Shown here one piece after another: positions 7,789 to 17,952 of a stretch of DNA of 64,000 nucleotides. A program made the position numbers and the translations under genes. The DNA comes from Hymenobacter piscis (GTDB lineage: Bacteria > Bacteroidota > Bacteroidia > Cytophagales > Hymenobacteraceae), in assembly GCF_018760735.1 (NCBI RefSeq), contig NZ_JAHHZN010000018.1, positions 1 through 64,000 on the forward strand. The letters run 5' to 3'. Position 1 is the first letter of the stretch, and each line of letters opens with the position of its first letter. The notes under the pieces were generated by a model. The model saw nothing but the letters and a program-made list of their open reading frames with translations, made no database searches and had not been told where the DNA came from.

Positions 7789-7867
7789 TGTCATCCTGCG
7801 CTTGCGAAGGACCTTGTACCGCATTCACTGCTGATGGTACAAGGTCCGTCGCAAGCGCAGGATGACA
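7789..7867. repeat. Long palindromic intergenic repeat, GTCATCC type
   Basis: Two 32-nt arms (7789-7820 and 7836-7867) are complementary except for one position, around a 15-nt loop. It lies between two convergent genes and may end both transcripts. The arm start GTCATCCTGCGC resembles the arm GTCATTCCGAGC of the palindrome at 17805-17905, suggesting one family. Confidence 0.85.
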
Positions 7868-7877
7868 GTATTAATTC

Positions 7878-10160
7878 TTACAGCACCAGCAGCCCCTTTT
7901 CCCGCAGCAGCTCCCAGGCCGGCGACTGGAGGAACTGCTCGAAGCTCAGGCCGCCGGCGGGGAAGGTGGCGGCAGCTTCCTTGAGCAGCAGTTTGGTGTC
8001 GTAGTCGGTGCTGAGGCAGGTGAGCAGCTCCAGGAGCCACTGGCCGATGGCGGGCGTGGTTTTGAGCTCGAAGTCCTCGGCCTGCTCGTAGAATACCAGC
8101 GTGGCCCGGGCCCCGGGCCGCGTATCGAGGGGAAGCAGCTCGGGGGCGTTGCCCAGCCAGAACAGGCGCAGGTTCTGTTTTGCGAAATCGGGCTTGCCGG
8201 GCTCCTGGAGGGCTTTCTGGATGAGCTGGCGGGGTACGGTGGTTTTGGGCACCCGGAAATCAAACCAGAAGCTCAGCGGCTCCTGCAGGGCTACGCCGTG
8301 CAGATAGTTGTAGAGGGCCTTGGCCAGACCCGGGCCGAAGGCCTCGTGGTCGGTGCCGGTGGGGTCCTCGTGCCAGAGGTCGTTCCAGGCGAAGGGGCCG
8401 GGCTCGGGACCAATGGCGGCCACTTTATACTTCGCCGGATTCTTGCCCACCGGGGAGTGGGCCGTCATCGAGAAGCGGTGCCAGTAGCCGCTCTGCACGA
8501 TGCCCGCCTGGAACAGCTGGCGCACCACTTCCAGCGAATCCACGGTTTCCTGGGCCGTTTCGGTGGGGAAGCCATACATCAGGTAGGCGTGCACCATGAT
8601 GCCGGCCCGGGTGAAGCCGTCCGTCACGCGGGCCACCTGGGCAATGGTCACGCCCTTTTCCATGAGGGCCAGCAGGCGGTCGGAAGCCACCTCCAGGCCC
8701 CCGCTCACGGCAATGCAGCCCGCGGCGGCCAGCAGGCGACACAAATCGGGCGAGAAGGTTTTCTCGAAGCGGATGTTGCCCCACCACGTGATGTTCACGC
8801 GCCGTTTCAGCAGCTCCACGGCCAGGTCGCGCAGGGCCAGGGGCGGGGCAGCCTCGTCCACGAAGTGGAAGCCGGTCTGCCCGGTCTGGGCCACAATTTG
8901 CTCGATGCGGTCCACCAGCAGCGTAGCCGGGGCCGTTTCGTAGCGGCCGATATAGTCCAGCGTCACGTCGCAGAAGGAGCAGCGCTTCCAGTAGCAGCCG
9001 TGGGCAATGGTGAGCTTGTTCCAGCGCCCGTCGCTCCAGAGCCGGTGCATGGGGTTGAGCACCTCAATCACCGACAGGTACTCCGTCAGCGGCAAATCGG
9101 AATAATCCGGCGTGCCCACCTCCGGGTGCGGAATATCCGGCCCCGGGTGGTTAACGTACTCCACCTCGCCCGCCGCGTTGCGCAGGAAAGTGCGTTGGAG
9201 TGTGTCAGTTGTCAGTTGCCAGTTGTCAGTTGTCAGTTCGTTCTCGAGTTGGCCTGGCTGATGGGTTTGACCATTGGCAACAGCCTGACAGCTAACAACT
9301 GGCAACTGGCAACTCAGCGCCTCCAACAGCCGCAGCCAGGGGCCTTCGCCGTCGTCGAGGGTCAGGAAGTCGATGTAATCGAAGAAGCGGGGCTCCCGGA
9401 TCTGGCGCAGCTCCGTGTTGGGGTAGCCGCCGCCCATGCTGGTAAGGGTACCGGGGCGGGTCTGCTTGACGCGGGCGGCCAGGCGCAGGGCGCCGTAGAG
9501 GTTACCGGGGAAGGGCACCGTGAAGCCCACAATGTCGGGCTGGGTGCGGTCGAGCAGCTCGTCGAACAGCTCCAGCAGCATCCGGTCCAGCAGGTTGGGC
9601 GGGGCCTGCAGGGCCTCGTGCAGCGGGTCGAAGGTGGTGGCCGACATGGCCAGCTTCTCGGCGTAGCGCGAAAAGCCGAACTGGGGGCCCACGGTTTCCT
9701 TGATCAGGTCGCCCAGGTCTTCGAGGTAGAGCGTGGCCAGGTGGCGGGCCTGGTCGGTGAGGCCCATGGTGCCGAAGGCGGTTTCCAGGTCGGCCACGTT
9801 GTCGAAGCGGCTGGCTTCGGGCAAAAACCGGCTGTGGCAGATGCGGGGCGCGAGGGTGCTGTCCTTGTTCTGCAGAAACCGGACGACCGGCTCCACCGTG
9901 CTCAGGTAGCTGGTGCGCAGGCGCAGCATCCGGCGGGCATTGTCGCTGAGCTCGAACGCGCCGGCCTCAATTTCGGCGAAGACCCGCGTCAGGCCAGCCT
10001 TCGAGAACAGCTTCAGCACCAGTTCCAGGCCCAGGTCGGCCTGCCGGATGTGGTAGCCGCGCGCGCCCAGGAACCCCTTCAGGTAGGCCGTGGCCGGGTA
10101 GGGGGTGTTGAGCTGCGTGAGCGGCGGGGTGATGAGCAGGATGCGGGGCGAAACGGACAC
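7878..10160 (-). CDS. B12-binding-type radical SAM protein
   Basis: A cytosolic 4Fe-4S radical SAM enzyme of 760 residues, with an N-terminal cobalamin-binding-like Rossmann domain (strand IVGFTVPFPGN and MGGGYPN around 220-260) and a central radical SAM barrel. The cluster cysteines are C389, C394 and C397 in GCYWKRCSFC, spacing CX4CX2C instead of the usual CX3CX2C; this variant is seen in some B12-dependent subfamilies. The reaction is unknown. The GTG at 10160 is preferred because a TATCTTTG box at 10192-10185 lies inside the longer TTG-initiated frame. About 38 residues (282-320, bases 9203-9316) are encoded by a low-complexity inverted repeat inserted in frame, ahead of the cluster motif. 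It shares its upstream region with the divergent UPF0173 gene. Confidence 0.88.
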   Translation of the reverse strand: MSVSPRILLITPPLTQLNTPYPATAYLKGFLGARGYHIRQADLGLELVLKLFSKAGLTRVFAEIEAGAFELSDNARRMLRLRTSYLSTVEPVVRFLQNKDSTLAPRICHSRFLPEASRFDNVADLETAFGTMGLTDQARHLATLYLEDLGDLIKETVGPQFGFSRYAEKLAMSATTFDPLHEALQAPPNLLDRMLLELFDELLDRTQPDIVGFTVPFPGNLYGALRLAARVKQTRPGTLTSMGGGYPNTELRQIREPRFFDYIDFLTLDDGEGPWLRLLEALSCQLPVVSCQAVANGQTHQPGQLENELTTDNWQLTTDTLQRTFLRNAAGEVEYVNHPGPDIPHPEVGTPDYSDLPLTEYLSVIEVLNPMHRLWSDGRWNKLTIAHGCYWKRCSFCDVTLDYIGRYETAPATLLVDRIEQIVAQTGQTGFHFVDEAAPPLALRDLAVELLKRRVNITWWGNIRFEKTFSPDLCRLLAAAGCIAVSGGLEVASDRLLALMEKGVTIAQVARVTDGFTRAGIMVHAYLMYGFPTETAQETVDSLEVVRQLFQAGIVQSGYWHRFSMTAHSPVGKNPAKYKVAAIGPEPGPFAWNDLWHEDPTGTDHEAFGPGLAKALYNYLHGVALQEPLSFWFDFRVPKTTVPRQLIQKALQEPGKPDFAKQNLRLFWLGNAPELLPLDTRPGARATLVFYEQAEDFELKTTPAIGQWLLELLTCLSTDYDTKLLLKEAAATFPAGGLSFEQFLQSPAWELLREKGLLVL
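9203..9316. repeat. In-frame low-complexity inverted repeat inside the radical SAM gene
   Basis: The left arm (about 9203-9240) consists of tandem CAGTTGT/CAGTTGC words, and the right arm (about 9283-9316) carries the complementary ACAACTGGCAACTGG words. The repeat is 114 bp, a multiple of three, and has no stop codon in the reading frame. The encoded segment is Gln/Thr/Cys-rich and unlike the flanking enzyme. Confidence 0.85.
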
Positions 10161-10184
10161 GGTACTACAACAACGGGCGAGCCG

Positions 10185-10192
10185 CAAAGATA
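10185..10192 (-). promoter_or_regulatory. -7 element TATCTTTG for the radical SAM gene
   Basis: Exact TAnnTTTG on the minus strand, 25 bp before the GTG start at 10160. It faces a TATCTTTC box at 10237-10244 for the divergent hydrolase. Confidence 0.6.
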
Positions 10193-10249
10193 CGGCAAGC
10201 CCCAACGATGCGCCGCCCCGGTTGCGTTCCGCCGCGTATCTTTCGCCCC

Positions 10250-17700: not shown

Positions 17701-17804
17701 GGGCAAGAAGTTGGGAAGTAGGCGAGGGGTGAGGTAGTGAGGAGGCGATGGGGTTATGGGGTGAGGAAGTGACGGACCAAGAAGGCAAGACAGTAGCACA
17801 AGAG

Positions 17805-17905
17805 AACGTCATTCCGAGCGGAGCCGAGGAATCTCGCGTGCTGATGTTGGAATGGTAACTCAACGTCAGCACGCGAGATTCCTCGGCTCCGCTCGGAATG
17901 ACGTT
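17805..17905. repeat. 45-bp palindromic intergenic repeat, GTCATTCC type
   Basis: Arms 17805-17849 and 17861-17905 match except one position that still allows a G-U pair; the loop is 11 nt. It is embedded between low-complexity flanks (GGTGAGG-rich at 17722-17770, CACCTCACCACC at 17939-17952) that are also mutually complementary. It sits in the gap between the divergent btuB leader and the glycosylase. Confidence 0.88.
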
Positions 17906-17952
17906 CCTTTTGCCCGCGGTTCCCGTACTTCCACTTCACCACCTCACCACCA

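Follow-up and report, generated by a model that had tools for sequence, protein, structure and literature searches.

The window, by which we mean the whole 64,000-nt stretch of Hymenobacter piscis DNA that was analysed, carries on its minus strand a gene for a radical SAM protein with an inverted repeat of 7-bp words (heptads) inside its reading frame. The features of this locus are:

7878..10205, minus strand: radical SAM gene, a 775-aa ORF that starts at TTG; its conserved part begins near 10142
9198..9338, minus strand: hypervariable insertion site, codons 290-336 (WLRLLE...DTL), 141 nt here versus 51 nt in empty orthologues
9201..9314, minus strand: heptad palindrome read as SCQLPVVSCQAVANGQTHQPGQLENELTTDNWQLTTDT (inverted-repeat and word searches)
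9292..9314, minus strand: 5' arm, AGTTGCCAGTTGCCAGTTGTTAG in the coding sense, peptide SCQLPVV (inverted-repeat search)
9237..9291, minus strand: loop that separates the two arms, approximately CQAVANGQTHQPGQLENE (inverted-repeat search)
9206..9236, minus strand: 3' arm, CTGACAACTGACAACTGGCAACTGACAACTG in the coding sense, peptide LTTDNWQLTTD (inverted-repeat search)
8970..8996, minus strand: iron-sulphur cluster motif CYWKRCSFC, codons C404 to C412 (orthologue alignment)

The plus-strand word of the insert is CAGTTGT (7 bp), and the tandem 7-bp unit gave a lag-7 match of 19/21, compared to at most 10 at the other lags tried (4-6 and 8-10). An earlier note on this DNA had described an inverted repeat of such words at about 9203-9316, and this repeat is real, with arms and word matches that exceed those of shuffled sequences. 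Its inverted arms at 9194-9236 and 9285-9327 are 43 nt long and match at 81%, and the inner arms at 9214-9236 and 9292-9314 are 23 nt long and match at 91%. The heptad 13-mer CAGTTGTCAGTTG (at most one mismatch) occurred five times in the window, always within 9206-9308 and nowhere in its remainder, whereas the shuffled controls had a mean of 0.09 matches and a largest count of 2. The same note had the frame kept open through the repeat, in agreement with the unbroken 775-aa ORF at 7878-10205. It had also let the repeat add 114 bp, or about 38 residues; there is such an addition, but the site spans 9198-9338 and the net gain is 90 nt, or 30 residues. Its cluster motif C389/C394/C397 had the right spacing, CX4CX2C, but has to be renumbered to C404/C409/C412 (775-aa numbering). 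Finally, it had called the similar elements of the window intergenic, which is true of the two strong palindromes checked (7789-7867 and 17804-17906), but these are not of the same kind and belong to other repeat families. The window also contains five weaker palindromes. The stretch at 17804-17906 is a near-perfect palindrome (GAACGTCATTCCGAGCGGAGC...) between ORFs with a CGTC-tagged look, and that at 7789-7867 (TGTCATCCTGCGCTTGCGAAGG...), also between ORFs and immediately downstream of the radical SAM gene, belongs to a different repeat family.

By the genetic code, the repeated 7-base word encodes an identical cyclic peptide, QLSVVSC, in all three frames and without a stop, and its opposite strand reads TTDN(TGA)QL, with one stop per 21 nt. 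In the 3' arm, TGG occupies the slot where the plain word would give TGA, and in other orthologues with heptad inserts this slot holds TGG, CAA, CAG, CGG, CAT or TCG (loose pattern). In the 19 non-coding two-armed heptad copies of the same genome, only 18 of 114 frames were open. The low number of open frames among non-coding copies, together with the filled stop slots, indicates that the coding heptad copies are a filtered subset.

The host protein matched the Pfam Radical_SAM model (E 1.2e-11, 45.5 bits, cut-off 29.5) and, weakly and in its N-terminal half, the B12-binding model (E 3.5e-5, 24.1 bits, below the cut-off of 32.1), and a search of NCBIfam models gave none above cut-off. The best fold matches of the 775-aa protein were OxsB, TsrM, MgmA, CysS and AprD4 (TM-scores 0.29-0.48), and its predicted fold is similar, at low TM-scores of 0.3-0.4, to those of OxsB and TsrM, which are cobalamin-dependent. 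The cluster cysteines of radical SAM proteins are usually spaced CX3CX2C. The motif at 8970-8996 has the spacing CX4CX2C instead, and C404, C409 and C412 were invariant in the 54 orthologue rows aligned. Outside the insertion site, the remainder of the protein is strongly conserved in the orthologue alignment. An AlphaFold2 model of a 754-aa construct had a mean pLDDT of 73 and a pTM of 0.74, a confidence that is moderate overall, and therefore only the placement of the loop was taken from it. The insert corresponds to residues 281-307 of the construct (pLDDT < 50), between a helix (266-277) and a strand (318-321); it is thus predicted to occupy a disordered loop that runs from helix to strand and lies between the two halves of the protein, B12-binding-like and radical SAM.

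We compared the site in 119 genus loci (the window included), 117 of which span it; L147 and L148, whose contigs end before the site, and G093, which gave a weak match only, were left out. Twenty loci from other genera of the family (20 of 84 genomes read at the site, none of them from g2) completed an alignment of 137 rows. Here the genus and g2-g6 are computed groups, and some species in g5 carry the name Hymenobacter at NCBI (H. edaphi). All 117 genus loci were in frame across the site in a test that allowed any frame and covered the genus loci only, and no stop codon fell within the site in any of the 137 rows, the extraction of which required one frame. The segment is missing in 18 of the 117 genus orthologues and in 14 of the 20 from other genera, always in favour of an empty form of exactly 51 nt (12/12 loci in g3, g4 and g6, but 2/8 in g5, where the other six loci hold inserts). 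This bears out the view of the earlier note that a new segment has been tolerated in the protein; the single insertion that it envisaged is instead a recurrent hotspot, filled in 99 of the 117 genus loci with 66-306 nt, and four further proteins carry in-frame copies. The empty form is conserved, with 17 codons in 32/32 empty rows and Gly at codon 10 in 30 of them, which suggests that the empty alleles are ancestral.

The 137 sites were sorted by rule and by hand into 57 REP, 27 heptad, 21 other and 32 empty ones, with nine inserts of lag-7 scores 14-16 moved into the heptad class and seven weak matches kept in the REP class. A significant inverted repeat (z >= 3, 40 shuffles) was present in 74 of the 99 filled genus sites (heptad 22/25, REP 46/53, other 6/21) and in none of the 18 empty ones. 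As 21 of the 137 sites are of the other class, and 25 of the 99 filled genus sites had no significant inverted repeat (z < 3, 40 shuffles), a palindromic origin is apparent in many inserts but not in every one. The heptad inserts are built of several different words among the orthologues. The main non-heptad family begins CGTCATGCTGAGC and is CGTC-tagged and REP-like; its members show a two-armed arrangement. CGTC-tagged REPs in general are defined by a CGTC end tag followed by AT, a stem of 8-9 bp, a loop of 4-5 nt, a CCA-like tail and head-to-head dimers. One 42-nt consensus fitted both arms in 25 of the 57 REP-class inserts, 15 of which had CGTCAT in both arms; the remainder of the 25 vary in one or both arms. 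In the 137-row alignment the variance of insertion length was 460 at the site compared to 0.8 at the next internal site, and no other internal position gained more than three residues (counted relative to one empty reference, at sites filled in at least three rows). The loop is a genus-wide hotspot that is used by several unrelated palindrome families. In four loci (L138, L141, L145 and L125), the same loop holds protein tandem repeats of PPPALVQPALGQVL, PSPAMAGEHFT, GQSAP and TPAEAS types, with no heptad or REP palindromes.

The words of the inserts are dispersed in the genomes. The exact heptad 13-mer had 88 partly overlapping matches in about 50 clusters of its own genome, compared to 0 for the word read backwards, in agreement with the earlier note's view of a repeat that the genome holds elsewhere. 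Within the genus, the 13-mer was present in 69/120 genomes (backwards control 3 matches), a second word, AGCTRTT, in 67/120 (control 0) and AAGCTGC in 45/120 (control 1), and exact copies of a 26-nt core of the CGTC-type family were present in 117/120 (control 0). In g3, a genus of the same family, the heptad word was at chance level (5 matches in 50 genomes versus 3 backwards), and the site was empty in all five g3 rows read. The family of the insert also followed the genome in which it was found: the median number of heptads elsewhere was 15 in genomes with a heptad insert and 3 in those without (p 3e-6), and that of REPs was 37 with a REP insert and 17.5 without (p 1.5e-4), in tests that subtracted the insert's own matches and treated genomes as independent, ignoring shared ancestry. 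Furthermore, inserts made of AGCT words were found in genomes rich in AGCTRTT (p 7e-4, ancestry ignored; 22 of the 25 genus heptad rows, as L037, L040 and L074 have CTGGTT words and were left out).

Among the 50 own-genome heptad clusters in the pieces fetched (cluster G000:C4:103673-103692, which lies at the cut edge of a piece, was left out of this survey), five lay in frame inside Pfam-domain proteins, namely the radical SAM protein, an M14 peptidase, a D-Ala-D-Ala ligase (Ddl), UvrA and a PD-(D/E)XK nuclease. The UvrA and Ddl copies were checked across relatives, where empty orthologues exist; the nuclease and the peptidase were seen in the own genome only. For UvrA and Ddl we used the best 30 loci of 120 genomes each, a choice that favours query-like alleles, and could parse 23/30 for UvrA, 27/30 for Ddl site 2 and 8/30 for Ddl site 1. 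A short form of UvrA (KMDEETR or near) was present in 6 of the 23 parsed loci from these best 30 and clear heptad peptides in 7, while Ddl site 2, again in the best 30, had a short GPDGK-like form in 19 of 27 and a longer one in 8. Both sites are likely to be surface turns. L029 (G000:C4:15936-18948), which is D-Ala-D-Ala ligase-like and about 950 aa long, contains two separate heptad-derived stretches and looks duplicated.

The states of the site were then mapped on a tree built without it (a quick search with no bootstrap, in which 41 of 134 inner branches scored below 80). The least numbers of state changes were 20 for heptad, 29 for REP and 11 for empty, and branches with SH-aLRT >= 95 alone forced at least 14, 19 and 9 changes, respectively. 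Assuming that empty is ancestral and that nothing was lost, the present tree has 25 gains. Supported sister pairs in different states include L050 (heptad) with L116 (empty; support 98) and L074 (heptad) with L109 (REP; support 99). Several of the clades with gains contain heptad as well as REP inserts, so that inserts must also replace or nest in one another.

In ten orthologous insert pairs, pN/pS was 0.37 in the insert and 0.07 in the next 900 nt, and without a pseudogene pair the values were 0.37 and 0.04. The ratio of replacement to silent change in the insert was 5.6 times that of the flank for the ten pairs and about 9 times without the pseudogene pair. Judged from these substitutions, the inserts change faster at the protein level than the flank, yet slower than neutral sequence. 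The excess of silent over replacement change argues for its being read as protein (binomial test against neutral proportions, p 9e-9, transition bias uncorrected), and the insert appears to be translated as an extra protein segment. The radical SAM protein probably keeps its activity despite the insert. An intron, an intein or a bypassed insert is opposed by the unbroken frame and by a pN/pS below 1. One radical SAM orthologue, L108 (G082), has several stops after the site and is probably a decaying gene.

We consider it very probable that the insert is an in-frame copy of a genome-resident heptad palindrome that landed in a loop of a conserved enzyme and became part of its translated sequence, the tolerated copies having been selected. 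The mechanism that we propose starts from the numerous palindromic repeats, belonging to several unrelated families, that Hymenobacter genomes contain; copies that enter genes would persist only if they are tolerated, i.e. in frame, free of stops and in a surface turn. The radical SAM protein would offer one permissive loop where independent insertions could pile up, the inserting family being whichever is abundant in each lineage, and after landing the inserts would decay via point mutation and in-frame indels. Most likely, an insertion process would bring the copies in, as opposed to their being built in place, and the loop would be permissive rather than actively targeted. Regarding the mover, the earlier note had called the repeat mobile-like, and the dispersed distribution from which mobility can be deduced is there, but no transposition signature was found. 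A Y1/RAYT transposase was sought by its association with the repeats and rejected: in the 30 Y1_Tnp loci fetched, four fixed patterns detected a heptad within about 1.5 kb in one and a CGTC repeat in one, and 9 of 31 genomes had no Y1_Tnp match, including two that have heptad inserts (G004 and G050) and one that has a REP insert (G110). This lack of an associated Y1 transposase agrees with the absence of a dedicated transposase for CGTC repeats that is reported in excerpts of PMC3733652.

There is a small but real chance that the palindromes were made in place: a small quasi-palindrome in the loop would undergo replication slippage and template switching, by which words are expanded and one arm is copied to the other, with no arriving element. 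Of fourteen sister pairs listed, nine had both members among the 25 two-arm REP inserts, and in three independent pairs (L047/L048, L064/L071 and L128/L130) one position each had undergone the identical change in both arms (L061/L064 repeats the L064 change), which fits this reading and suggests that arm-to-arm copying is occasional. As a general rule, arm-to-arm conversion was rejected since most changes were one-sided and only these three pairs were concerted. Unusual words matched in both arms, e.g. CCGGTTG in L050 and CCCGTTG in L035, also favour an origin in place, and so does the result for target-site duplications, none of which was convincing in a by-eye comparison of 13 pairs, of which 10 were empty/filled and 3 filled/filled; the filled alleles in this comparison had their original loop codons largely replaced or eroded. 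However, an origin in place does not fit the way in which the insert family tracks the genome's own dispersed copies, the occurrence of AGCT-word inserts in AGCTRTT-rich genomes (p 7e-4), or the single 42-nt consensus in both arms of 25/57 REP inserts with its 26-nt core in 117/120 genomes.

It is unlikely, in our judgement, that the site is an active target, with an insertion machinery that prefers its DNA or a hairpin-prone empty sequence beyond mere protein tolerance. A single internal position does take every long insertion seen in the radical SAM gene, and different families use it, but the UvrA and Ddl sites differ in their empty sequence, and no common motif was recognised in an unsystematic comparison. 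We regard as very unlikely that the hairpin is retained for a function, be it to slow translation between the domains at the mRNA level or to serve as a useful linker. Such a role would suit the 99/117 filled genomes, the insert pN/pS of 0.37 and the position in a predicted loop ahead of the radical SAM half; the family and length (66-306 nt) nevertheless vary widely, 25/99 filled sites lack a significant inverted repeat, 18/117 genomes lack an insert, and the raised replacement/silent ratio (5.6 times the flank, about 9 times without the pseudogene pair) and the same words at unrelated sites of other enzymes speak against it as well. That repeats often break assemblies, and that L108 has internal stops after the site, might point to a pseudogene or an assembly artefact; this is barely credible and was rejected because each of the 117 readable genus loci keeps the frame, and, in addition, some of the genomes are single contigs and conservation is strong in the remainder of the protein.

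Insertion of repeats into genes as such is already known from the Rickettsia palindromic elements (RPEs) and from intragenic REPs, including those in uvrA. RPEs are inserted in frame in unrelated conserved genes (excerpts of PMC10969869), and their arms lose identity over time (a remark in excerpts of PMC6649704). The Hymenobacter repeats are likewise dispersed, in frame in unrelated conserved genes and absent at the same place in relatives, a likeness of kind only, drawn by description with no RPE sequence aligned. They differ in that Rickettsia belongs to another phylum and that the Hymenobacter repeats are heptad-built, with one loop struck repeatedly by several families genus-wide. For CGTC-tagged REPs, excerpts of PMC3733652 (2013) report families also in Bacteroidetes, no dedicated transposase, intragenic copies in uvrA, recB and other repair genes, and, for two Xanthomonas species, REPs that differ but occupy roughly one and the same position in recB. 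Our main family of non-heptad inserts is also CGTC-tagged, and UvrA is also a target in Hymenobacter (of the heptad). In contrast to the genus-wide hotspot in Hymenobacter, the closest case in the excerpts of PMC3733652 is recB of the two Xanthomonas species, and the main text of that paper has 0 occurrences of Hymenobacter. RAYT-mobilised REPs (GTAG type) differ in having a repeat-flanked RAYT/Y1 gene, an association that was not found here beyond 2/30 Y1_Tnp loci with either repeat nearby. The STRR sequences of cyanobacteria are heptamer repeats. TAACTGA-type heptamers are tandem 7-bp words dispersed in Cyanobacteria, Beggiatoaceae and five Bacteroidetes, mostly between genes; some lie inside ORFs, and the coding copies are mainly at the protein periphery, with one exception (excerpts of PMC4679880). 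Both kinds of heptamer repeat share the tandem 7-bp unit with the Hymenobacter insert, whereas the Hymenobacter copies are palindromes with two arms and lie within conserved enzymes. In Nematomorpha mitochondria, inverted repeats occur in coding sequence and arm-to-arm conversion is discussed (excerpts of PMC6649704); there, both arms encode conserved protein, while the Hymenobacter palindrome adds sequence to a variable loop. Among the literature matches listed, we found neither Hymenobacter palindromes inside genes nor heptad palindromes as coding inserts in conserved enzymes, nor one loop struck by several families genus-wide.

Whether repeats make new protein segments in bacteria is an old question, with Rickettsia as the best-known case. 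Here, a single orthologous loop provides natural alleles within one genus, 99 filled and 18 empty, with several families and measurable decay, and thus a natural record of repeats becoming protein. As Hymenobacter is free-living and culturable, tolerance, arm conversion and possible function are directly testable. Hypervariable inserts in Hymenobacter proteins, among them UvrA and D-Ala-D-Ala ligase, can consist of repeat DNA and need not be adapted domains. More tentatively, and with less than even confidence, we suggest that core enzymes might have fixed landing loops in which unrelated palindrome families replace one another, so that the loop sequence would be a readout of the dominant selfish repeat, and that heptad palindromes might represent a novel class of mobile repeats that code for protein, from which the would-be stop per 21 nt is removed on domestication.

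Composite elements were observed at L165:1501-1675, L176:1353-1527 and L023:1331-1527, where a CGTCATTCC- or CGTCATCC-type repeat lies inside a heptad cluster; in these, the repeats seem to nest in one another.
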